Shown here piece by piece: positions 337-27,356 of a DNA stretch of 43,819 nucleotides. Position 1 is the first letter of the stretch. Every line of letters begins with the position of its first letter. The position numbers were made by a program, and so were the translations under genes. Location: positions 1 to 43,819 of the forward strand of contig NZ_JAEUOL010000288.1 of NCBI RefSeq assembly GCF_016789985.1, in the 5' to 3' direction. Source of the stretch: Accumulibacter sp. Lineage in GTDB: Bacteria; Pseudomonadota; Gammaproteobacteria; Burkholderiales; Rhodocyclaceae. The notes under the pieces were generated by a model. It saw only the letters and a list, made by a program, of their open reading frames with translations, made no database searches and was not told where the DNA came from.

Positions 337-353
337 TGTCGGAAATCTTTACA
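337..353 (+). promoter_or_regulatory. Putative enhancer element upstream of PEP-CTERM gene 1
   Basis: The 17-bp sequence TGTCGGAAATCTTTACA has a near copy, TGTCGAAAAAACTTACA, in the same orientation relative to the second PEP-CTERM gene (8169-8185, minus). In both cases its first base is exactly 80 bp before the first base of a -24/-12 promoter-like sequence. It is a loose dyad (TGT-N11-ACA). PEP-CTERM genes of floc-forming betaproteobacteria are reported to be controlled by RpoN with the PrsK/PrsR two-component system. I infer this is the binding site of such an activator; the protein itself is not in the window. Confidence 0.6.
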
Positions 354-416
354 CTCGCCCCCGCCAGGACCGGGGCATGGTTGGCAAGCGATTGTTTTCA
401 TGTGTCCATAAGGAGC

Positions 417-432
417 AGGCACGCTATATGCT
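417..432 (+). promoter_or_regulatory. Sigma-54 (-24/-12) promoter-like sequence, PEP-CTERM gene 1
   Basis: AGGCACGCTATATGCT fits the RpoN consensus TGGCACG-N4-TTGCW at all but two fixed positions, and keeps the GG at -24 and GC at -12 with correct spacing. Transcription would begin near 445, about 105 bases before the start codon. The paired upstream element begins 80 bp earlier. Confidence 0.6.
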
Positions 433-548
433 TGATTTTTCTCCGTCCGGCCACGGGTGCCCGGGGGTCGGCGACACTTGGGGGTGTCACGTGGTTCCCA
501 TCCCGCTGTTCGGGAACCGGTCGCGGTTGCGCATACGGAGGGCTGCAC

Positions 549-1427
549 ATGAACAAGACAAGAATCTTGCTGGCCGGGGTGGCACTTTCCATGGCGTCTC
601 TCGCCGAAGCAGTGCCGCTCATCCACTCGGCGGTGACTACCGGCGGTGCGGCAGACGCCGCCTTCAATGCGGTGATCAACTCGTTCCGCAGCACTCTGGG
701 GGGGGCGCTCAATGCTCCCGGAGCGTGCGCGCCGCCCTGCACCTCGGGCCGGCGGGAGATCAACTGGGATGCGGTGCCGGTGGGCTTCAGTTCGCCGAAC
801 GCGTTTCCGGGGGATTTCTTCAATGGCACGACCGGCGTGCAGCCGAACGGCCGGATTCGCGGCGCGACTTTCACCACGCCGGGAACCGGCTTCCGGGTGA
901 GCGCCAGCGAGTTTTCCGACGAAGCGGCCTTCGGCCCGGGCGAGTTCGATGCGTTCAGTCAGGCGAGAATGTTCGCCAGCCTGGGCAGCAACATCACCGA
1001 TGTCACCTTCTCCCTGCCGGGAAGCCCGGGCGTCGCGGCGACCGTACGCGGCATGGGCATCGTCTTCTCCGACGTCGATTACACGGGCAGCGCCTCGCTG
1101 GAATTCTTCGACGCCGGCGGCGGGTCGCTCGGGCTGTTCGACGTGGCGGGCGTCTTCCCGGCGGCGGACGGGCGCAACAGCCAGGGCTCGTTCTCCTTCC
1201 TGGGTGTCTCGTTCGACGCTGGCGAGCGGGTGGCACGCGTGCGCATCGTGTCGGGTTCGCACGGCATCGATGGCAACTATGTCGGCCTGGACGATGCGGT
1301 AGTGATGGATGATTTCATCTACGCCGAGCCGCAGGCGGTGCCCGAGCCTCTGACCAGCATTCTGCTCGGCGCCGGCCTGACCGGGCTGTTCGTCTCGCAC
1401 CGGCGCCGAGCCCTCATGACGCGCTGA
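549..1427 (+). CDS. PEP-CTERM sorting domain protein, exported
   Basis: A 292-residue secreted protein. It begins with a classical signal peptide (MNKTRILLAGVALSMASLAEA, residues 1-21). It ends in a PEP-CTERM signal: VPEP, a hydrophobic stretch (LTSILLGAGLTGLFV) and a basic tail (HRRRALMTR). Such tails are recognised and cut by exosortase (EpsH/XrtA type), and the products go to the cell surface or the exopolysaccharide matrix. The middle part has no catalytic motif I recognise; it looks beta-rich. The start is set by CGGAGGG seven bases before the ATG. A longer in-frame extension to 318 exists but lacks a signal peptide at its start. The gene stands alone, downstream of a sigma-54-type promoter. 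No exosortase gene is in the window. The specific role is unknown. Confidence 0.85.
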   Translation: MNKTRILLAGVALSMASLAEAVPLIHSAVTTGGAADAAFNAVINSFRSTLGGALNAPGACAPPCTSGRREINWDAVPVGFSSPNAFPGDFFNGTTGVQPNGRIRGATFTTPGTGFRVSASEFSDEAAFGPGEFDAFSQARMFASLGSNITDVTFSLPGSPGVAATVRGMGIVFSDVDYTGSASLEFFDAGGGSLGLFDVAGVFPAADGRNSQGSFSFLGVSFDAGERVARVRIVSGSHGIDGNYVGLDDAVVMDDFIYAEPQAVPEPLTSILLGAGLTGLFVSHRRRALMTR

Positions 1428-1782
1428 CCCGGCGCAGCGCGATGGCGCGGCCATCCGCAGCGCCGGGCCGTCCCGTCCGCCGGCTGACCGGTTGTTCCGT
1501 CCGGAGACGAGTCGGGCAGGACCGGCAGCAGGCGCGCGCCTCCGCGATCCCGGCGTGAATCTCGCCACATCCGGGTCCTGATCGTGCGCAAGCCGGCGTT
1601 TCATTCGGCCGAGGCAGCCGTCGATCTACGCCATCGATGTCCCTCGATGGCGGCCATCCAGTCGTCGCGCGCGGGTTTCGACAACGCCGGCGGCCCGCTC
1701 GAACGACGATTCCTTGTCACCCGGACCCGAAGCAAATCGGATCATTCCCGGAACGGGAAGATCCGGGGCTCATTCCTTTTGA
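1428..1782. other. Gene-poor stretch between PEP-CTERM gene and transposase remnant
   Basis: About 350 bases follow the PEP-CTERM stop with no open frame that has both a start with a ribosome binding site and recognisable protein content. Possible degraded mobile-element sequence, since it leads into the transposase tail, but I could not identify it. No clear terminator hairpin was seen after the PEP-CTERM gene. Confidence 0.4.
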
Positions 1783-2043
1783 GATGGTACGTCGCGTGGG
1801 GGCGACGGCCACCCGCGCGACGCCATTCTCCAGCAAATCGAGACCAGGGGACTTGTCGGCTGGAAGAACGACAATGCTTGCCCTCGACACAGCCCTTCCG
1901 AGAACATGAGGTACCGGTTCAAGCCACTCGGCGACGGCCTGTACTCCCGAACCTTCGAACGGCAGGTGAACGAAGCCCGCCTCCGAGCGGTGATCCTCAA
2001 CACCTTCACCTACCTCGGCATGCCGCAATCGGTCCGGGTAGGG
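1783..2043 (+). pseudogene. IS5-type transposase, C-terminal remnant
   Basis: After an in-frame stop at 1780, one frame reads through a segment typical of the end of IS5-family DDE transposases. It has DAILQQIETRGLVGW, then SENMRYRFKPLGDGLYSRTF, then a closing NTFTYLGMPQSVRV, where the family's usual N.MT.LGMP.S ending is recognisable. The start of the gene, the DDE core and both inverted-repeat ends are not visible. The frame continues past the normal end of such proteins without a stop until 2277, so the original end is also lost. This is a dead fragment, evidence of past IS insertion between the cas2 debris and the Hsp70 locus. The exact IS family is an inference from motif memory. Confidence 0.5.
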
Positions 2044-2087
2044 CGGTGCGCCCGCCGGGCTTGCCTGGCACGCTGGCGGTTTTGTCG

Positions 2088-2306
2088 CTACTCGACGGGA
2101 ATGATCAGCTTGTCCCAGCCCGATCCATCGTCATCGGGGCCGCCCTTGCCGGTCTGTCCGAGCCTGGCGAGACGCGCCTCGACTTCGGCAATCGATTCGG
2201 GGGTCACGCGCAGCGTCCGCCGTTCGGCGCCGTGGCGGCGTTCGGCCATTCCCGGTGGTGGTCCGGAATGGTTCTGACGGCGGTCTGTTCCTCGTTGCGC
2301 GCGCAT
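2088..2306 (-). CDS. Small uncharacterised protein, 72 residues
   Basis: A 72-residue frame downstream of the Hsp70-family gene on the same strand, 153 bases after its stop. It starts at an ATG with an almost perfect ribosome binding site (GAGGAGGG, 4 bases before the ATG). The protein is very basic and polar in its first half (R/H/E-rich, ERRHGAERR), has a short amphipathic helix (TPESIAEVEARLARLG), then GWDKLIIPVE at the end. No transmembrane segment and no known family that I recognise. A longer in-frame start at 2441 exists but has no comparable binding site. It may be co-transcribed with the Hsp70-like gene. Function unknown. Confidence 0.5.
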   Translation of the reverse strand: MRAQRGTDRRQNHSGPPPGMAERRHGAERRTLRVTPESIAEVEARLARLGQTGKGGPDDDGSGWDKLIIPVE

Positions 2307-2459
2307 TGCTCCCTCCTCGAAAATCGCCGAAAGCTGGTGGGGACGGCGACTTGTTGACACGGGCCAGCCGGAAAGCTCCTGCCCTGTTCCGGACCGCCAG
2401 CCCTGGTGGCGAGGGCGAGAAGACCCCTGTCCGGCTGGCATTATCGGTACAAAGCTCCT

Positions 2460-5240
2460 TTAATTCAAGCCGCTGTTTTCCCTGATCAGGCGCAGGCCGG
2501 CGGGCAGGGACTCACCAAACGCCCGCCGTTCGTCCGCCTTGTCGAGCGCGACCACGTTTCTCACCTGATTGCTCCAGGTGGCGCTGGCGTTGATCGCAGC
2601 CAGGCGGGCCAGCACCGATTGGCGCAAGTCGTCCGTCAGGTCGCGCGAACGGTCGCCGGTCAGGCGGGCAATCTGCGTTGCGGCGAAGGCAGCCGGCTCG
2701 AGTTTCTTCCAGTCGGTGGCCAGCAGGGCCTGCAACCAGCGGCCGGCAACCTCGGGAGGTACCACCTGGTGGACACTGCCGTAAAGCGCCTGACGTGCTC
2801 CCAGACGACCAAGTGCCCACCAGCCGAGGGGCTTTTCGGATGCCTTGCAGAGTCGTTCGAGCAGCCAGTCGCCGATCTCAGCCTTGCGCTCGATCGGCAG
2901 CCTTTCGAGCGATGCGACGAGGCGGAGCATGTCGTCATGGCTGCCGGCGATCGCCGCCGGCAGGCGCCCGCGCACTTTCGAAGGCTCGCTGCGCAGCCAG
3001 GGGGACAGCTCGAGTAGCAGTTGCTCCTGGGCAGAGGCCGGCAGGCCGCCGGCCGCCCGTCGCCATAGGGTCCACCATTCCGACCAGTTCTGGCTTTCGT
3101 TGACGTACTGGATGCCCTGCGGCAGCAGCTCACCAAGCTGTTCGATCCGCCATTCGTCAAGCGAGTCGCCAAGTCCCGGGCGCAGGCAGAAACCGGCGAG
3201 GTTGAGCCACAGACGCTCATGCTCCGGTGAGCGGCGCCGGCGCCTGGCGCGCTGCAGCAAGGCGTCGAAGAGCGCACGCAGCAAGGGCATTGCCCAGTCG
3301 TCGCGCTTGCCGAGCAGGTGTTCGAGATGAGCGCGCAGGCGTCGCACCTCCTTGCTGTCGGCCGGTTGCCCGCTGGCACCAAAAATGCGCTCGATGCATT
3401 GCACCGCATCGGCAAAGCGTGCCGGCAACTCGGGCGAAGCGGATTCCATGCTGCCACCTTCGCCACGCAACTGGAATTCGAGCAGCCAGCGCCGGCTCCT
3501 GTCGTCGCTCGCCACGCAGTGGATTGCGAGCGTGCCGACTTCGGTCATCGCTGTCGTCAACTGGACGCGCACCTCACGCTGGCTGCTTCCCGTCAGTCCC
3601 TGGACAACGGTGGCAATCGGCGGCAAACGAACGAATTCGTCTTCGTCGAGCGTCGCGATCTCACCCGGCTGGTAGTCAGTGTCGGCCACCGACGAGGCGA
3701 GGTGAAAGCGCACCGGTTGTCCGAGGCGCAAACTGAAGCTGCGTTCCGGCAGGGCGACTTCGTGACCTTCCTCGCTGCCCCGCGGCAGCAGGCAGATCCC
3801 GCGCCGCGGCTGACCCTGGTCTTCAAGCACCAGGAAATAGCTGCGCGCCGAGCCGCCGCCGATGCGTTGCCCGTGTCCCTGGCGGACCAGGGCATAGGCG
3901 ACCGCCCCGCGGGCTACGGCGATGTCCGGATTGTCATTGTGCAGAACGCGCAGTGGCTTCCCGCGCCACTGTGCGAGGGTGGTCTGCAGGCGCTCGGCGA
4001 GCGCGTCGGCACGGAAAACGCCGCCATTCAGCAGCAGACTGTCGGGCAGTGGCATCGCCTGCGTCTCGTCCGGCTCGGACAGCGCCTGGCGGGCGGCCTG
4101 CGCATGTCGTCTGAGGAAGGCGGCAACATGCCGGGTGATTGCCGGGTCAGCCGGGTAGGGCAGGCCGAACTCGACAATGGCGGCGCGTCGCTGCTGCAAG
4201 GGTTCGTCGACCGTCACCTGCGGGAAGAATCCGTCCACCAGCACCTGCCGGGTCTCGTCGCGCCGCAGCTCGACCGTCCGCGCCCCGCCGATCAGGCGCG
4301 CGCCACCGCCGAGCAGCGTCAGCAGCAGCGCTTCCGGAGCGTCGTCGGCCAGCAGTTGCTCCTTGGCGGCACGACAGCGCGCCGTCAGTTGTGAAAAGCG
4401 CGCCGCCGACAGGCGGCCTTCGCCGGCCGGCAGGCGCGCCTCGACGAGATGCGCCAGCGCGAGATCCATGTTGTCGCCACCGAGCATCAGGTGATCACCG
4501 ACGCCGATGCGGGTCAGTTGTGGCTGGCCATCGACGATTGCCACCTGGATCAGGGTCAGGTCGCTGGTGCCGCCGCCGACATCGCACACCAGCAGCAGCC
4601 GGGTTTCGGCGAGCTGCTCGGCGAGCTGTTCCTGATGGCGGAACAGCCAGTCGTAGAACGCCGCCTGTGGCTCCTCGAGCAGGCGCAGGCTGGGCAGTCC
4701 GGCCTGACGCGCCGCAGCCAGGGTGAGCGCACGTGCGCCTTCATCGAACGAAGCGGGAACGGTCAGGATCACCTGCTGCTGCTCGAGCGGCGCCTGCGGG
4801 AAACGGTGTTGCCAGGCGGCGCGCACGTGGGACAGGTAACTGGCGCTGGCGGCGACCGGCGAGACCTTGAGTACCTCATCGTCGGCACCCCAGGGCAGGA
4901 TGTCCGCCATGCGGTCTACCGCGGCGTGCGACAGCCAGCTCTTGGCGCTCGCCACCAGTCGCCCGGGAACCTGTGCGCCGAGGTCGAGTGCCAGGCGGCC
5001 GGTGATTGCCGGCTGGCTGCCCGCGGCGGCGGTCCACGGCAACTGGAGTTCGCCAGGGTCCAGCTCGCCGCTGGCCGGGTGGTAACGCACCGAAGGCAGC
5101 AGCGCTCGTGTGGCAACCTGTCCGGGCGCCACCAGTTGCTCGATTTCGAAGAGTTCGACCTGTCGTTTGCCGGGCGCACTGTAGGCGACGACCGTATTGC
5201 TGGTTCCGAGGTCGATGCCGACGATGTACTGTTTCTTCAT
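2460..5240 (-). CDS. Long Hsp70-family (DnaK-like) chaperone protein
   Basis: A 926-residue protein whose first ~370 residues form an Hsp70/actin-type ATPase. Phosphate 1 motif is GIDLGTSNT at residues 8-16, phosphate 2 is CDVGGGTSD at 219-227, and the adenosine motif includes LLNGGVFR further on. It differs from DnaK: there is no canonical substrate-binding domain or EEVD-type tail. Instead a ~350-residue, helix-rich C-terminal half follows, of the kind described as DUF3731 in bacterial Hsp70-like proteins of about 930 residues. Such proteins are usually encoded with a DUF2760 gene and a second Hsp70-like gene; neither is here. I chose the ATG at 5240 because the conserved ATPase begins at once; the frame extends upstream to 5459 but that part covers the uup start. 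Clients are unknown. Confidence 0.85.
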   Translation of the reverse strand: MKKQYIVGIDLGTSNTVVAYSAPGKRQVELFEIEQLVAPGQVATRALLPSVRYHPASGELDPGELQLPWTAAAGSQPAITGRLALDLGAQVPGRLVASAKSWLSHAAVDRMADILPWGADDEVLKVSPVAASASYLSHVRAAWQHRFPQAPLEQQQVILTVPASFDEGARALTLAAARQAGLPSLRLLEEPQAAFYDWLFRHQEQLAEQLAETRLLLVCDVGGGTSDLTLIQVAIVDGQPQLTRIGVGDHLMLGGDNMDLALAHLVEARLPAGEGRLSAARFSQLTARCRAAKEQLLADDAPEALLLTLLGGGARLIGGARTVELRRDETRQVLVDGFFPQVTVDEPLQQRRAAIVEFGLPYPADPAITRHVAAFLRRHAQAARQALSEPDETQAMPLPDSLLLNGGVFRADALAERLQTTLAQWRGKPLRVLHNDNPDIAVARGAVAYALVRQGHGQRIGGGSARSYFLVLEDQGQPRRGICLLPRGSEEGHEVALPERSFSLRLGQPVRFHLASSVADTDYQPGEIATLDEDEFVRLPPIATVVQGLTGSSQREVRVQLTTAMTEVGTLAIHCVASDDRSRRWLLEFQLRGEGGSMESASPELPARFADAVQCIERIFGASGQPADSKEVRRLRAHLEHLLGKRDDWAMPLLRALFDALLQRARRRRRSPEHERLWLNLAGFCLRPGLGDSLDEWRIEQLGELLPQGIQYVNESQNWSEWWTLWRRAAGGLPASAQEQLLLELSPWLRSEPSKVRGRLPAAIAGSHDDMLRLVASLERLPIERKAEIGDWLLERLCKASEKPLGWWALGRLGARQALYGSVHQVVPPEVAGRWLQALLATDWKKLEPAAFAATQIARLTGDRSRDLTDDLRQSVLARLAAINASATWSNQVRNVVALDKADERRAFGESLPAGLRLIRENSGLN

Positions 5241-5271
5241 CTGCTGCCGAAGGTTCGAGAAGGATTGCTGC

Positions 5272-5277
5272 GTTATA
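5272..5277 (-). promoter_or_regulatory. Extended -10 promoter candidate for the Hsp70-like gene
   Basis: On the minus strand TGCTATAAC supplies a TG-n-TATAAC extended -10 box. Transcription would start near 5265, about 25 bases before the ATG at 5240. No good -35 hexamer stands 17 bp upstream, and no heat-shock sigma-32 type promoter was recognised. Confidence 0.35.
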
Positions 5278-5445
5278 GCACAGCGTCGCTCGGCTTGCTG
5301 CCCCGATCCGTTGCCAGTCTGCGCTGCAGGCTTTCCCGGCGCGGTAGAATCGCGCAATTGCCGGGCAAGCCCGGCAACCGGCAAGTGCGCCGCGCGGCGC
5401 GCCGGATCCCGTTGCATCCATTCCTGAAGAAACCCGGTTACCCAG

Positions 5446-7374
5446 ATGCCGTATCTCATTCTCTCCGATGCTTCGCTCGCTTTCGGCCACGTGCCGCTGC
5501 TCGATCACGCCGATTTTCAGCTCGATGTCGGCGAAAGGGTGGCGCTGATCGGTCGCAACGGGACCGGCAAGTCTTCGCTGTTGAGTGCGCTCGCCGGTTA
5601 TGGCGGGCTGGACGACGGCAAGGTCTGGTGGCAGCCGGGCTTGCGCATCGGTTACGTCCCGCAGGAGCCGCCCCTTGATCCCGAACTGACCGTTTTCCAG
5701 GCCGTGGTGGCCGGCATGGGCGAGGTTTCGGAACTGCTGGCCGAATACCACGCCGTCGCGCAGGCACTCGCTGACGCCGGAGCCGATCAGGCGGTTCTGT
5801 TGGAGCACATGCATGTGTTGCAGAGTGAACTCGAGGCGAGGCGGGCCTGGTCGTTCGAGGCGCAGGCCGAGCGCGTCATCCAGCGCTTCTCGCTCGACGC
5901 GGACCGTCTGGTGGGCACGCTTTCCGGAGGACAGAAGAAGCGTCTGGCGCTGGCTCAGGCGCTTGCCATCTCACCCGATCTGCTGCTGCTCGACGAGCCG
6001 ACCAATCATCTCGACGTCGCGGCGATCGAATGGCTCGAGGAAATGCTTGTTTCTTCGGGGGTGACGCTGGTCTTCATCACGCACGACCGACGTTTTCTCG
6101 AACGGGTGGCGACGCGCATCGTCGAACTCGATCGCGGCAGCTTGCTTTCCTGCCCCGGCAGCTTCAGCGCGTATCAGGCGCGCAAGGAGGCGATGCTGCA
6201 CGACGAGGCGCTGGCCAATGCCCGCTTCGACAAGTTCCTGGCGCAGGAGGAGGTGTGGATCAGGCAGGGGATCAAGGCAAGGCGGACGCGCAACGAAGGA
6301 CGCGTGCTGCGCCTGGAGCGGCTGCGACGTGAGCGGGCAGCACGCCGTGACCGGCAGGGGAAGGTCGAGCTGGCACTCGATGCGGGTGATCGCAGCGGCA
6401 AGCTGGTGGCGCTGCTCGAGGGCGTGCATAAGGGCTTTGGCGAGAAGCGCGTGGTACGGGACTTTTCATGTCGTGTCCAGCGTGGTGACAAGATCGGCAT
6501 CATCGGACCGAACGGGGCAGGCAAAACGACCCTCCTGCGCCTGATTCTCGGCGAGTTGGCACCGGAGCAGGGCAGGGTCGAACTCGGCACGAAGGTGCAG
6601 GTTGCCTACTTCGACCAGTTCCGCAGCCAGCTCGACGAGCAGGCAACGCTGATCGAAGTCATTTCGCCTGGCTCCGATTATGTCGACATCGGTGGTCAGA
6701 AGAAGCACGTGATCAGCTATCTCGGCGATTTCCTGTTTGCGCCGCAGCGGGCGCGTTCGCTGGTCAGCTCCTTGTCTGGTGGGGAGCGCAACCGTCTCCT
6801 GCTGGCTCGCCTGTTCGCTCGCCCGGCCAATGTCCTCGTGCTTGACGAGCCGACCAATGACCTGGATATCGAGACGCTCGAACTGCTCGAGGAATTACTG
6901 CAGGACTACAGCGGAACGCTGTTTCTGGTCAGCCACGACCGCGCTTTCCTGGACAACGTGGTCACCCAGACGATCGCCGCGGAAGGGGATGGCATCTGGC
7001 GCGAGTACGCCGGTGGTTATCAGGACTGGTGCGACTATCAGGTCGCCAGACGCGGGGGAGTGACGCCGGTGGCGAGTCCGCCGCGCGACAGGGAGCCGCG
7101 CCCGGGTGAAGCGTCACGCCCGGGAAAGGCGACGCCGCCGACGAAAACCGCCACCGCCGGCAAGCTGTCCTGGAAAGAGACGCAGGAACTGGCCGCCTTG
7201 CCCGGGCGTATCGCGGAGCTGGAGGCGGAACAGAGGGCAATCGCCGAGCGACTGGCCGATCCCGCGCTCTATCAGTCGCCGCTGCAGGAAGTGCAGCGGC
7301 TGACGGTACGGCTGAACGAGATCGACCAGCAACTCCTGGCCCTGCTCGAACGCTGGGAGGCGCTGGAAGCCTAA
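5446..7374 (+). CDS. uup: ABC-F family ATPase Uup
   Basis: A 642-residue soluble protein with two ABC ATPase domains and no membrane segments. Domain 1 has Walker A GRNGTGKS (residues 36-43), signature LSGGQKKR and Walker B LLLLDEPTNHLD. Domain 2 has GPNGAGKTT, LSGGERNR and VLVLDEPTNDLD. The linker between them is basic, and a coiled-coil tail (about residues 570-642, E/L/R-rich) follows a charged, proline-rich hinge, as in E. coli Uup, which binds branched DNA and ribosomes. Length matches the family. The tail separates it from EttA. It is divergent from the Hsp70-like gene; its stop codon overlaps that of the convergent PEP-CTERM gene. The upstream TAGAAT at 5345 could be its -10 box, but the matching -35 is poor. 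Confidence 0.93.
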   Translation: MPYLILSDASLAFGHVPLLDHADFQLDVGERVALIGRNGTGKSSLLSALAGYGGLDDGKVWWQPGLRIGYVPQEPPLDPELTVFQAVVAGMGEVSELLAEYHAVAQALADAGADQAVLLEHMHVLQSELEARRAWSFEAQAERVIQRFSLDADRLVGTLSGGQKKRLALAQALAISPDLLLLDEPTNHLDVAAIEWLEEMLVSSGVTLVFITHDRRFLERVATRIVELDRGSLLSCPGSFSAYQARKEAMLHDEALANARFDKFLAQEEVWIRQGIKARRTRNEGRVLRLERLRRERAARRDRQGKVELALDAGDRSGKLVALLEGVHKGFGEKRVVRDFSCRVQRGDKIGIIGPNGAGKTTLLRLILGELAPEQGRVELGTKVQVAYFDQFRSQLDEQATLIEVISPGSDYVDIGGQKKHVISYLGDFLFAPQRARSLVSSLSGGERNRLLLARLFARPANVLVLDEPTNDLDIETLELLEELLQDYSGTLFLVSHDRAFLDNVVTQTIAAEGDGIWREYAGGYQDWCDYQVARRGGVTPVASPPRDREPRPGEASRPGKATPPTKTATAGKLSWKETQELAALPGRIAELEAEQRAIAERLADPALYQSPLQEVQRLTVRLNEIDQQLLALLERWEALEA

Positions 7375-8039
7375 ACAGCTACGCGCGTCTCGTCGCAGAC
7401 TCGGCGACCACGTTTGCGCGCGAGGCCGAGGCCCAGGAGTCCCAGACTGAACAGTGCGAGGGCACCTGGCTCGGGCAGGGAAGCGCCGTTCTGGCAGGTC
7501 ACGCATTGCAGGAGGACGTTGTCCACGATGACGCCGACGTTGTCGTTGCTGCTCGTTTCAAAGGCGACTTGGCTGGCGAAACCTGTACCACTGATGAATT
7601 GCAGGAAATGTTCGCCAAAGGGAGCGGAAGGAGGGAGTGTCAGTGTCACCGAAAACGCGCCAACGGACAGCGTGAACGTGTCGTTGGCGCCGCCGCGCTG
7701 GTTGCCGGAGATGTCCGCGCTCAACCTGTACGTCTCGCCGGCGAGGAAATTGAAGTTGGCATTGGAGGTGAGGCGCCCACCATTGCCGGTTGATCCGTCA
7801 AGATCGACACAGCCGCCGTTGCCACCCGCACAGCCGATGCCGAAGCCGCCCTGGCGAATGTAGTCGACGGTACCGCTGTCGACCGCCCAGTTGTTGAAGC
7901 TGCTGAAGTTGAGCACGCTGGCGTTGCTGTCCGAATTGAAGTCGTCCTGCAGCAACACTACCGAGGCCTGGACCGGTGCGGCGATCAAGCCAAGAACAAA
8001 CATGCCGGCGGCGACTGATTTCTTGAAGTTGGTGATCAT
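7371..8039 (-). CDS. PEP-CTERM sorting domain protein, exported
   Basis: A 222-residue exoprotein with a signal peptide (residues 1-25, KKSVAAGMFVLGLIAAPVQA). A jelly-roll-like, Gly/Asn/Ser-rich body follows, then a PEP-CTERM tail: LPEP, hydrophobic ALALFSLGLLGLGLA, then RKRGRR. The body has an early DDFNS segment and four Cys residues in two pairs (GIGCAGGNGGC, CVTC), typical of extracellular carbohydrate-binding folds; ligand unknown. The start is the ATG at 8039, which has AGGAAAGGG before it; an in-frame ATG at 8072 would put 11 polar residues ahead of the signal peptide. The gene has the same upstream element and -24/-12 promoter as the PEP-CTERM gene at 549. It ends tail-to-tail with uup, the two stop codons overlapping. 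Confidence 0.88.
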   Translation of the reverse strand: MITNFKKSVAAGMFVLGLIAAPVQASVVLLQDDFNSDSNASVLNFSSFNNWAVDSGTVDYIRQGGFGIGCAGGNGGCVDLDGSTGNGGRLTSNANFNFLAGETYRLSADISGNQRGGANDTFTLSVGAFSVTLTLPPSAPFGEHFLQFISGTGFASQVAFETSSNDNVGVIVDNVLLQCVTCQNGASLPEPGALALFSLGLLGLGLARKRGRRVCDETRVAV

Positions 8040-8089
8040 TGCTATTGCCCTTTCCTGGTTCATTTGATGCATTTGGTGCTCCAGGTGAA

Positions 8090-8105
8090 AGCAAATTGCG
8101 TGCTA
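8090..8105 (-). promoter_or_regulatory. Sigma-54 (-24/-12) promoter-like sequence, PEP-CTERM gene 2
   Basis: On the minus strand TAGCACGCAATTTGCT matches TGGCACG-N4-TTGCW at every fixed position except the second base (A instead of G in the -24 GG). The -12 TTGCT is perfect. The departure at -24 is the main weakness, because that GG is usually strongly conserved. Transcription would start near 8078, about 40 bases before the ATG at 8039. Confidence 0.6.
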
Positions 8106-8168
8106 GTCATGTTCATGGCTGATTTATCGGGATTTACACACCATTGCGTGGTCTGCAAGAGCGTCTGT

Positions 8169-8185
8169 TGTAAGTTTTTTCGACA
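8169..8185 (-). promoter_or_regulatory. Putative enhancer element upstream of PEP-CTERM gene 2
   Basis: TGTCGAAAAAACTTACA on the minus strand, a near copy of the 17-bp element at 337-353 and again exactly 80 bp (first base to first base) upstream of a -24/-12 sequence. The remaining upstream sequence to the benE stop at 8396 holds no gene I can support. Confidence 0.6.
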
Positions 8186-26774: not shown

Positions 26775-27356
26775 TCAGGTGGTCCGTCGCGACAGTCCGT
26801 AGCCGGCGAGCGCGAGACCGAGGCCGAGCAGGGCGAGTGCGCTGGGCTCGGGGATGGCGAGGAGCAGCGGATTGTCGGACGAGAGACGGACGGCGCCACA
26901 ACCGCGACAAGTGTCGTACTCCGGTTGGCTTACCGCCATCTTGAGCGTCCAGTCACCTGCCGTATTCGACAGCGTGGCGAAGTTGAAGTCGAGAACGTGC
27001 GGGCTGTAGTCAAGGGGGAGATAGGTGGTGCTGCCAATGGATGTTCCGTTGAGGAAGAAGCCGAACTCCAGTGGCGCGGTTCGCCAGTTTGACTGCCATG
27101 CCGGGTCGCCCAGATTAAGTGTCAACTGCAGGCGGCTCACCGTCGCCAAGCCGGTACCCGAAAATGTCTGGCTGGCTTGCTGAATCTGTTCGCCCGCCCG
27201 GTCCTGTTCGAAATAGATGCCACCCTGATTGACGCCGCCCAACCCGGCCTGACTGAAATTGCTGGTATAGCTTGGGCTTGCCGTTGCCGGCAACGCGCTG
27301 CACAGCGACGACATCAGGAGTGCCGCCCTCATTGGCTTGCTGCTGATCGTGTCCAA
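26775..27356 (-). CDS. PEP-CTERM sorting domain protein, exported
   Basis: A 193-residue exoprotein with a signal peptide (about 1-26, RAALLMSSLCSALPATA). A beta-rich central part has a paired cysteine motif (CRGC). The C-terminal sorting signal is IPEP, hydrophobic ALALLGLGLALAGYGL, then SRRTT. The likely start is TTG at 27356, six bases after AGGGAGGA; a later ATG at 27332 would leave a shorter signal peptide. Unlike the other two PEP-CTERM genes here, it lacks the TGTCGR...TTACA element and a -24/-12 sequence, and has a sigma-70-like promoter instead. Function unknown. Confidence 0.87.
   Translation of the reverse strand: MDTISSKPMRAALLMSSLCSALPATASPSYTSNFSQAGLGGVNQGGIYFEQDRAGEQIQQASQTFSGTGLATVSRLQLTLNLGDPAWQSNWRTAPLEFGFFLNGTSIGSTTYLPLDYSPHVLDFNFATLSNTAGDWTLKMAVSQPEYDTCRGCGAVRLSSDNPLLLAIPEPSALALLGLGLALAGYGLSRRTT

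Follow-up and report, generated by a model that had tools for sequence, protein, structure and literature searches.

The window, i.e., the whole stretch of 43,819 nucleotides of Accumulibacter sp. DNA analysed here, carries two PEP-CTERM genes on opposite strands, both coding for predicted surface-sorted proteins and each preceded by a 17-mer and a sigma-54-like promoter box. Their features are as follows:

337..353, + strand: motif 1 (17 bp) of the PEP-CTERM box of gene 1, where PrsR is predicted to bind (TGTCGGAAATCTTTACA, direct reading)
385..399, + strand: IHF-like site of gene 1 (CAAGCGATTGTTTTC; de novo matrix score, 13.2 bits), with a predicted bend centre 20 bp ahead of the sigma-54-like box
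417..432, + strand: sigma-54-like −24/−12 box of gene 1 (AGGCACGCTATATGCT, direct reading)
549..1427, + strand: gene 1, PEP-CTERM protein of 292 aa (TIGR02595)
7371..8039, − strand: gene 2, PEP-CTERM protein of 222 aa (start ATG at 8039) whose body is choice-of-anchor-C-like
8105-8090, − strand: sigma-54-like box of gene 2, with AG replacing GG at −24 (TAGCACGCAATTTGCT, direct reading)
8112..8126, − strand: doubtful IHF-like site of gene 2, its bend centre 19 bp before the box, at the expected place
8185-8169, − strand: motif 1 (17 bp) of the PEP-CTERM box of gene 2, where PrsR is predicted to bind (TGTCGAAAAAACTTACA, direct reading)

Both genes do belong to the PEP-CTERM family, as the initial annotation had proposed: TIGR02595 (cut-off 16) scores 24.8 bits for gene 1 and 21.5 bits for gene 2 in the genome search. 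With hmmscan, gene 1 reaches 20.3 bits and gene 2 gives no TIGR02595 match at E 0.001; the Pfam family PF07589 (cut-off 20.7) is slightly below its cut-off in gene 1 (19.8 bits) and above it in gene 2 (21.4 bits), and gene 2 also matches TIGR04362 at 43.4 bits, below the cut-off of that model. The window has a third PEP-CTERM gene (27332-26775), which was considered as a third copy and discarded, as a relaxed matrix scan finds no box at it; the same scan, over the whole window and both strands, returned no box pair beyond the two listed.

The distance from the start of the 17-mer to the start of the sigma-54-like box is 80 bp at both genes (337/417 on the + strand, 8185/8105 on the − strand), so that the identical geometry on opposite strands claimed at the outset holds, with both 17-mers and both boxes at the positions given above. 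The spacer, up to where the 16-mer box starts, is 63 nt in both cases. The 17-mer of gene 1 ends in TTTACA and that of gene 2 in CTTACA, one letter off, and both fit TGTCG-N7-TTACA; the −24 GG and −12 GC are present in the box of gene 1, and the box of gene 2 keeps the GC and has AG at −24. A combined pattern with a free gap of 55-70 bases has two matches in the 3.66-Mb genome, both in the window (reversed-pattern control, 0), a count that is partly by design since the box letters of the pattern were derived from the window sites themselves.

This motif pair was published in 2006, and the window pair is not new in kind. Haft et al. described the PEP-CTERM box as a 17-nt motif 1 ending in TTTACA, followed after 62.8 ± 10.6 nt by a motif 2 with −24 GG and −12 GC, i.e., a −24/−12 box (PMC1569441); the window promoters resemble it in their motif pair and in their spacer (63 nt versus a mean of 62.8), and the genome encodes PrsK, PrsR, and PrsT, as in the system of 2006 (PMC1569441). 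The available part of that article gives the mean, spread, and range of the spacer; IHF, a host factor, and phasing are absent from it, and “helical” appears in it only in the title of a reference.

Across the Accumulibacter genome, TGTCG-N7-TTACA occurs in 31 copies (30 distinct sites; reversed-pattern control, 0), and 25 of the 30 sites are accompanied by a sigma-54-like box (score of at least 17.9). Allowing one mismatch made the 17-mer useless as a detector (651 matches versus 341 in the reversed control). The enrichment ahead of PEP-CTERM genes, on which the initial annotation had staked its proposal, is clear: 16 of the 23 PEP-CTERM genes above the TIGR02595 cut-off have a strict 17-mer on the same strand at most 1.5 kb upstream of the domain, where 0.14 would be expected. 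The strict box is absent at the other 7 of 23, one of them in the window, and a relaxed box stands ahead of 2 more PEP-CTERM genes, at 113-114 bp.

The genome also holds the expected regulators, with prsK, prsR, and prsT adjacent to one another (859, 728, and 913 bits, respectively), a PrsR made of receiver, sigma-54, and Fis-type HTH domains, rpoN, and ihfA (TIGR00987, 149.6 bits). Eight NtrC-like matches in this genome exceed 260 bits, PrsR among them, so that the predicted activator is assigned by family, and one of the seven others might bind the 17-mer instead. We consider this improbable given the strong co-occurrence of PrsR and the motif, which is like the profile of 2006 (PMC1569441): in the class sample, with E 1e-130 as the weakest value accepted for PrsR, PrsR is found in 61 of 68 genomes with the combined motif versus 106 of 369 overall, among the matches listed (odds ratio of about 50). 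Seven of the 68 (G069, G223, G257, G266, G332, G333, and G405) have no PrsR over the cut-off, which speaks for another activator; one has to keep in mind that some of their matches may be due to chance and that genomes may be incomplete. Conversely, 45 of the 106 PrsR genomes have no strict combined match among those listed.

That the 17-mer would be an activator site working with a sigma-54 promoter is, thus, supported by sequence evidence. The initial annotation went further and took dependence on RpoN and PrsK/PrsR as known. The RpoN part agrees with one gene of Aquincola tertiaricarbonis, pepA, which is RpoN1-dependent, with a mapped start, a −24/−12 box, and a predicted enhancer upstream (PMC9850573); “known” is too strong for PrsK/PrsR, a dependence termed probable in that species, where plasmids carrying prsK or prsK-prsR failed to complement (PMC9850573). 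pepA is like the window genes in being a PEP-CTERM gene with a −24/−12 box and an upstream enhancer, and differs in that its evidence is experimental (PMC9850573). Neither IHF nor helical nor phasing appears in the accessible portion of that text.

In order to describe the spacing, we assembled promoters from the genus, class, and phylum scans, a longer-spacing scan, and earlier scans of the own genome, the latter, and not the class scan, providing the own-genome rows. From 255 sites, 200 had a box score of at least 18 and formed 192 spacer groups, 188 of which lie within 64-140 bp (the other four at 54, 155, 161, and 170). The genus, class, phylum, and longer-spacing scans used fixed letters in the 17-mer and in GGNA-N7-TGCT (TGGNA in the longer-spacing scan), so that the conservation of those letters is imposed; the spacing was free within 42-102 bp (genus and class), 66-126 bp (phylum), and 101-161 bp (longer-spacing scan). 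Reversed-pattern controls gave no match in the genus and longer-spacing scans, 2 in the class scan, and 7 in the phylum scan, against 61 real matches in the latter. The promoter set takes in all listed class rows other than a duplicate (G167:C2:179782) and, for G051, five of its seven rows. Among the 150 listed genus rows, which include orthologues within one genus, 22 were added to the set by hand, besides the automatically returned loci; the spacing was therefore recounted on all 150, unselected.

The 188 promoters, all with distinct spacers, show a comb of distances with peaks at 69, 80, 91, 102, 113, and about 136 bp and a period of 11.2 bp (95%, 11.0-11.4 bp; R = 0.75 at 11.18 bp). A jittered null on the first 159 promoters never exceeded 0.31 in 2000 trials, and of the 29 promoters added later, 24 are no more than a quarter turn away from the predicted phase (p = 2.7e-4). 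Off-comb distances (71-77, 84-87, and 94-98 bp) are found in 1 of the 150 unselected genus rows and in 9 of 106 rows of the class sample, in both cases among the matches listed; the genus rows are the cleaner of the two. The comb is seen again across families of the class, among the matches listed, and the eight matches listed outside the class, from four genomes, stand at 69, 82, 82, 83, 91, 91, 101, and 104 bp. The preserved helical phase proposed from two genes, thus, extends to 188 promoters, with 80 bp as one value of the comb rather than a fixed distance.

Two copies, all that the window holds, could be look-alikes arising by chance or by recent duplication of one promoter, with no regulatory meaning. 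The wider set leaves almost no room for this: the reversed-pattern controls in the own genome gave 0, the spacers are unrelated (192 groups for 200 sites), and the comb repeats across class families and beyond the class. We, thus, rule out chance and shared ancestry on the reversed-pattern controls, the unrelated spacers, and the comb of the unselected rows. Helical-turn clustering is also known from Vibrio qrr promoters, where 61 natural LuxO/sigma-54 enhancers have loop lengths that group at intervals of about 11 bp, between about 80 and 120 bp (PMC4740811); that set has it in common with the PrsR-type promoters and differs in its activator, its genes, and its restriction to one genus (PMC4740811).

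Expectation maximization on the spacers, run without a prior, yields a third element, TAActcaTTGATTTa, which equals the IHF consensus (WATCARNNNNTTR) used to identify it. The initial annotation had overlooked this IHF-like element. It reaches at least 7 bits in 143 of the 188 promoters (controls, 23-32), and 130 of the 143 copies sit in three 5-bp windows, that is, at fixed helical positions. With the bend centre placed where the IHF core has its W end, a choice based on structural knowledge and made after the positions had been seen, the predicted bend centres of the two orientations fall at common places, 11 bp apart. Of the 188 promoters, 159 served to train the matrix; among the 29 held out, 21 have the element (shuffles: mean 7.4, maximum 14), and with the reversed matrix 11 of the same 29 spacers reach 7 bits, 3 of them in the windows. 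In the own genome, no more than 12 of 23 promoters score 7 bits or more. The IHF-like copy is strong at gene 1 and doubtful at gene 2, where the candidate has seven of the nine consensus letters yet scores 1.8 bits by the matrix, i.e., background level.

The element could be read by HU, Fis, or a second regulator, or reflect intrinsic curvature, the PrsR/sigma-54 part being right all the same. The name IHF comes from the consensus only, the 7-bit element is present in 143 of 188 promoters with no good copy at gene 2, and in Geobacter two ihf deletions raised, and did not lower, one gene with a PEP motif (PMC7962754). We hold such a reader to be unlikely, as the element emerged de novo with the IHF consensus, the bend centres coincide for both orientations, and an IHF site between activator site and promoter is the usual arrangement at RpoN promoters (PMC7962754). 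The sigma-54 promoters of nifH and psp are examples of IHF-assisted promoters, and most of the PrsR-type promoters examined are like them in having an IHF-type site between activator site and promoter; in the papers found, IHF-assisted promoters are not linked with PrsR or PEP-CTERM genes.

At gene 2, AG at −24 together with the lack of a scoring IHF site might point to a decayed or very weak promoter copy. We find this rather doubtful: its 17-mer and 80-bp phase are intact, and AG replaces GG in 3 of the 25 own-genome promoters, the other two preceding PEP-CTERM genes at C66 (14.1 bits, below the domain cut-off) and C222 (above it). ATGC at −12 is found in 4 of the 25, gene 1 among them. The AG and ATGC listed initially as weak points are, thus, present, but as ordinary variants.

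Taken together, the box is very probably a PrsR site standing 80 bp before a sigma-54 promoter, with a spacer likely bent by IHF so that PrsR reaches the polymerase; binding by PrsR and by IHF is what we infer from the motifs. PrsK would phosphorylate PrsR, whose dimers would bind the 17-bp inverted repeat and assemble an AAA+ ring; IHF would bend the spacer and bring PrsR to the polymerase, and ATP hydrolysis by PrsR would open the sigma-54 promoter. A short loop would require activator, bend, and promoter on matching helix faces, so that spacers would evolve by whole turns (69, 80, 91, 102, 113, about 124, and 136 bp) and with a longer spacer the bend would step outward by one turn (−20, −31, −42). 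One-turn steps around a likely bending-protein site suggest that the DNA is probably looped to activate these genes. It is a reasonably good bet that, across proteobacterial families, the PrsR regulon as a whole is such a looped switch of PrsR site, IHF bend, and sigma-54 promoter in one helical register, the comb being an evolutionary ruler for the helical repeat that looped DNA has in living cells (11.0-11.4 bp). In the literature on the PrsR/PEP-CTERM system, as far as the accessible texts go, we found neither helical spacing nor IHF.

A floc-forming bacterium needs at least one PEP-CTERM protein to form flocs (PMC9850573), and the way in which PEP-CTERM genes are activated is understood only in part. 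With the comb and the bend site, a vague spacer of 63 ± 11 nt gives way to exact predictions: insertions or deletions of 11 bp should be tolerated and those of 5-6 bp should not, ihf mutants should be affected, and the bend site should be movable by one turn. Such a large natural set of promoters with unrelated spacers should also be useful to the physics of DNA looping. Finally, the sharper motif can serve to search for the regulon, genes without a PEP-CTERM tail included: no PEP tail follows 8 of 23 own-genome promoters and 66 of 144 elsewhere, by a tail pattern that is blind to VPxPA tails, and PEP-CTERM genes are, judging from these predicted promoters, not the sole targets of the box.

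The initial annotation had placed a 17-mer and a sigma-54-like -24/-12 box 80 bp apart, start to start, upstream of two PEP-CTERM genes on opposite strands; direct reading returned the same coordinates for both elements and 80 bp in both cases, and both genes are PEP-CTERM genes by their match to TIGR02595. Only these two promoter places were found in the window by a relaxed matrix scan of both strands. The combined pattern, allowing a gap of 55–70 bases and with box letters derived from these same two sites, has two matches in the entire genome, both inside the window (reversed-pattern control, 0).

Features of the two predicted promoters in the window (bend centres are counted from the box)
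549-1427, + strand: gene 1, PEP-CTERM by TIGR02595
8039 (ATG) to 7371, − strand: gene 2, PEP-CTERM by TIGR02595
385-399, + strand: IHF-like site of gene 1, a clear match at 13.2 bits, predicted bend centre at -20
8126-8112, − strand: candidate IHF-like site of gene 2, 7/9 consensus letters in the expected place, centre at -19, matrix score 1.8 bits

This pair of elements is the already published PEP-CTERM box, described in 2006 (PMC1569441). That paper describes a 17-nt motif 1 ending in TTTACA, a spacer and a sigma-54 motif 2, present at 99 of 167 proteobacterial PEP-CTERM genes and matched to PrsR, PrsK, and PrsT; the spacer, 62.8 nt on average there, is 63 nt at genes 1 and 2. In our genome, prsR, prsK, and prsT are neighbours on contig 21, where a gene for an EpsB-type sugar transferase precedes them, and RpoN and IhfA are encoded as well. 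PrsR carries receiver, sigma-54-interaction, and Fis-type HTH domains, a set that fits the inverted-repeat site.

The 17-mer alone, written TGTCG-N7-TTACA, was found 31 times in this genome (control, 0), which makes 30 distinct sites, since two copies at contig ends (C125:6235-6251 and C262:5277-5293, contig numbers) are identical in sequence and likely represent one locus split by assembly. A sigma-54-like box scoring at least 17.9 follows 25 of the 30, at distances of 67, 69, 80 (6), 81 (5), 82 (2), 90 (2), 91, 92, 101, 102, 104 (2), 114, and 136 bp. The suspected enrichment ahead of PEP-CTERM genes was indeed found: 16 of the 23 over-cut-off PEP-CTERM genes have the strict 17-mer on their own strand in the 1.5 kb preceding them, against 0.14 expected; a variant 17-mer precedes 2 more at 113–114 bp, and neither strict nor variant form was found before the other 5. 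Twenty-three own promoters carry a box scoring at least 18; the ORF behind them has a PEP tail in 14 cases and lacks one in 8, with one cut by a contig end; the corresponding counts behind 144 promoters of other genomes are 64, 66, and 14, and the non-PEP counts are too high, as the pattern used is blind to VPxPA tails. VPxPA-type sorting tails instead of PEP were seen at six promoter loci (L160-L163, L197, L198). As some non-PEP targets were found again in different genomes, the PrsR-box regulon seems wider than the PEP-CTERM genes; PMC1569441 likewise mentions a few box sites without a PEP-CTERM gene.

The combined motif recurs outside this genome: 38 of the 61 genomes in the relatives set have it, as do all 28 of the genus, 68 of the 369 in the class sample, and 24 of the 398 in the phylum sample (61 matches vs. 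7 for the reversed control). Of the 369 class genomes, 106 have PrsR over its cut-off, among them 61 of the 68 with the motif (Fisher p 1.5e-32). This leaves 7 motif genomes without PrsR over cut-off and 45 PrsR genomes without a strict match, so that many cases escape the strict pattern.

It had been guessed, from two equal distances, that helical phase is preserved between the 17-mer and the promoter, and this holds at a larger scale: across 192 promoters with distinct spacers, distances cluster in steps of about 11 bp, with main peaks at 69.1 (n = 16), 80.0 (98), 91.0 (42), and 101.8 bp (22), longer ones at 113.2 (6), 123 (1), and 136.5 bp (2), and 4 of the 192 inside the six trough ranges. 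Over the 188 promoters within 64–140 bp, the fit is best with a period of 11.18 bp (bootstrap 95% 11.02–11.36; R = 0.75). When each distance of the first set (159 promoters) was shifted by up to half a turn, R never exceeded 0.31 in 2000 trials, and 24 of the 29 later promoters fall within a quarter turn of the phase and period fitted on that set (p = 2.7e-4). Among the unselected matches listed, those at 71–77, 84–87, or 94–98 bp number 1 of 150 in the relatives set (R = 0.84) and 9 of 106 in the class sample (R = 0.69); three further class-sample matches among those listed lie at 42, 54, and 66 bp. A search at longer distances, read from coordinates, placed 13 of the 27 matches listed (5 of them from our own genome) at 101–104 bp, 6 at 112–114, 2 at 123–124, 3 at 133–137, and 3 elsewhere. 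Four genomes outside the class contribute 8 of the matches listed, with distances of 69, 82, 82, 83, 91, 91, 101, and 104 bp.

The spacer contains a third element. In promoter-aligned columns of the 80- and 91-bp classes, AA is conserved at -31/-30, as are T and G within -25 to -23. A prior-free EM search of the spacers alone returned TAActcaTTGATTTa (log-likelihood 310, best of 14 starts, vs. 68 on shuffled spacers, best of 8), which is the IHF consensus, WATCARNNNNTTR, in its opposite-strand reading. This de novo matrix reaches at least 7 bits in 143 of 188 spacers, compared with 23–32 in controls (reversed or permuted matrices, shuffled spacers, upstream stretches of equal length), and the predicted bend centre lies near -20, -31, or -42 from the box (three 5-bp windows) in 130 of the 143. 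Forward and reverse copies differ in start position and coincide in centre. The longer the spacer, the further out the centre: -20 for 69 and 80 bp, -20 or -31 for 91 and 102, -31 for 113, and -42 for 124 and 136 (6 promoters in all for the 113-, 124-, and 136-bp classes). Of the 29 held-out promoters, 21 score at least 7 bits, against a mean of 7.4 and a maximum of 14 in 200 shuffles, and 18 do so within the windows (shuffles: mean 1.7, maximum 6); with the reversed matrix, the two counts are 11 and 3. Our own genome is weaker in IHF-like sites (12 of 23, of which 11 in the windows), and the candidate at gene 2 is not supported on its own because of its low matrix score.

The sequence itself shows the three elements, how they are ordered and phased, and which genes lie behind them. 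By analogy with established bEBP biology, PrsK would signal to PrsR, PrsR would occupy the 17-mer as a dimer and build up its AAA+ ring, IHF would bend the spacer, and PrsR would remodel the sigma-54 closed complex. According to PMC9850573, an Aquincola PEP-CTERM gene with such a box is RpoN-dependent, PrsK/PrsR dependence not being demonstrated there. For 61 Vibrio qrr promoters, sigma-54 loop lengths have been described as clustering by helical turns (PMC4740811), and according to PMC7962754 RpoN promoters commonly have IHF placed between the activator site and the promoter. In the latter paper, two ihf mutants of Geobacter show a roughly threefold rise of a PEP-motif gene, a result that points opposite to IHF-assisted activation. 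We found no report of helical spacing and IHF at PrsR promoters in the PEP-CTERM literature searched, most subscription journals being outside the search; the texts of PMC1569441 and PMC9850573 use neither of the words IHF and phasing.

The window holds a third PEP-CTERM gene at 26775-27332 (−), encoding 185 aa with the tail IPEPSALALLGLGLALAGYGLSRRTT (24.9 bits); the relaxed scan found no PrsR box there, and this gene is a natural contrast to genes 1 and 2 in one window. Six neighbouring ORFs scanned between 2460 and 15589 added no PEP-CTERM sorting gene to gene 2: one scores over the cut-off as a BenE transporter, the sub-cut-off matches are DnaK-like, Uup-like ABC-F, patatin-like, and glycosidase-like, and one ORF has no match.

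Small proteins without a PEP tail and with a twin-arginine-like start (RRxxLKKAA.. / RRKFIKAAAYTAP..) lie behind PrsR-box promoters in several genomes (L023 and L041, on own contigs C105 and C216; L134, L156, L203, L227). A conserved small protein starting with MNILNNWK, with no signal visible by eye, follows the box at 88–91 bp in three genomes (L016, on own contig C51; L102, L219). Four other ORFs behind the box resemble, by eye, GGDEF-type diguanylate cyclases: in L124, L148, and L157 the C-terminus shows the resemblance, and L126, which is cut, has a start resembling those of L124 and L148; such GGDEF-like targets possibly link PrsR to c-di-GMP.
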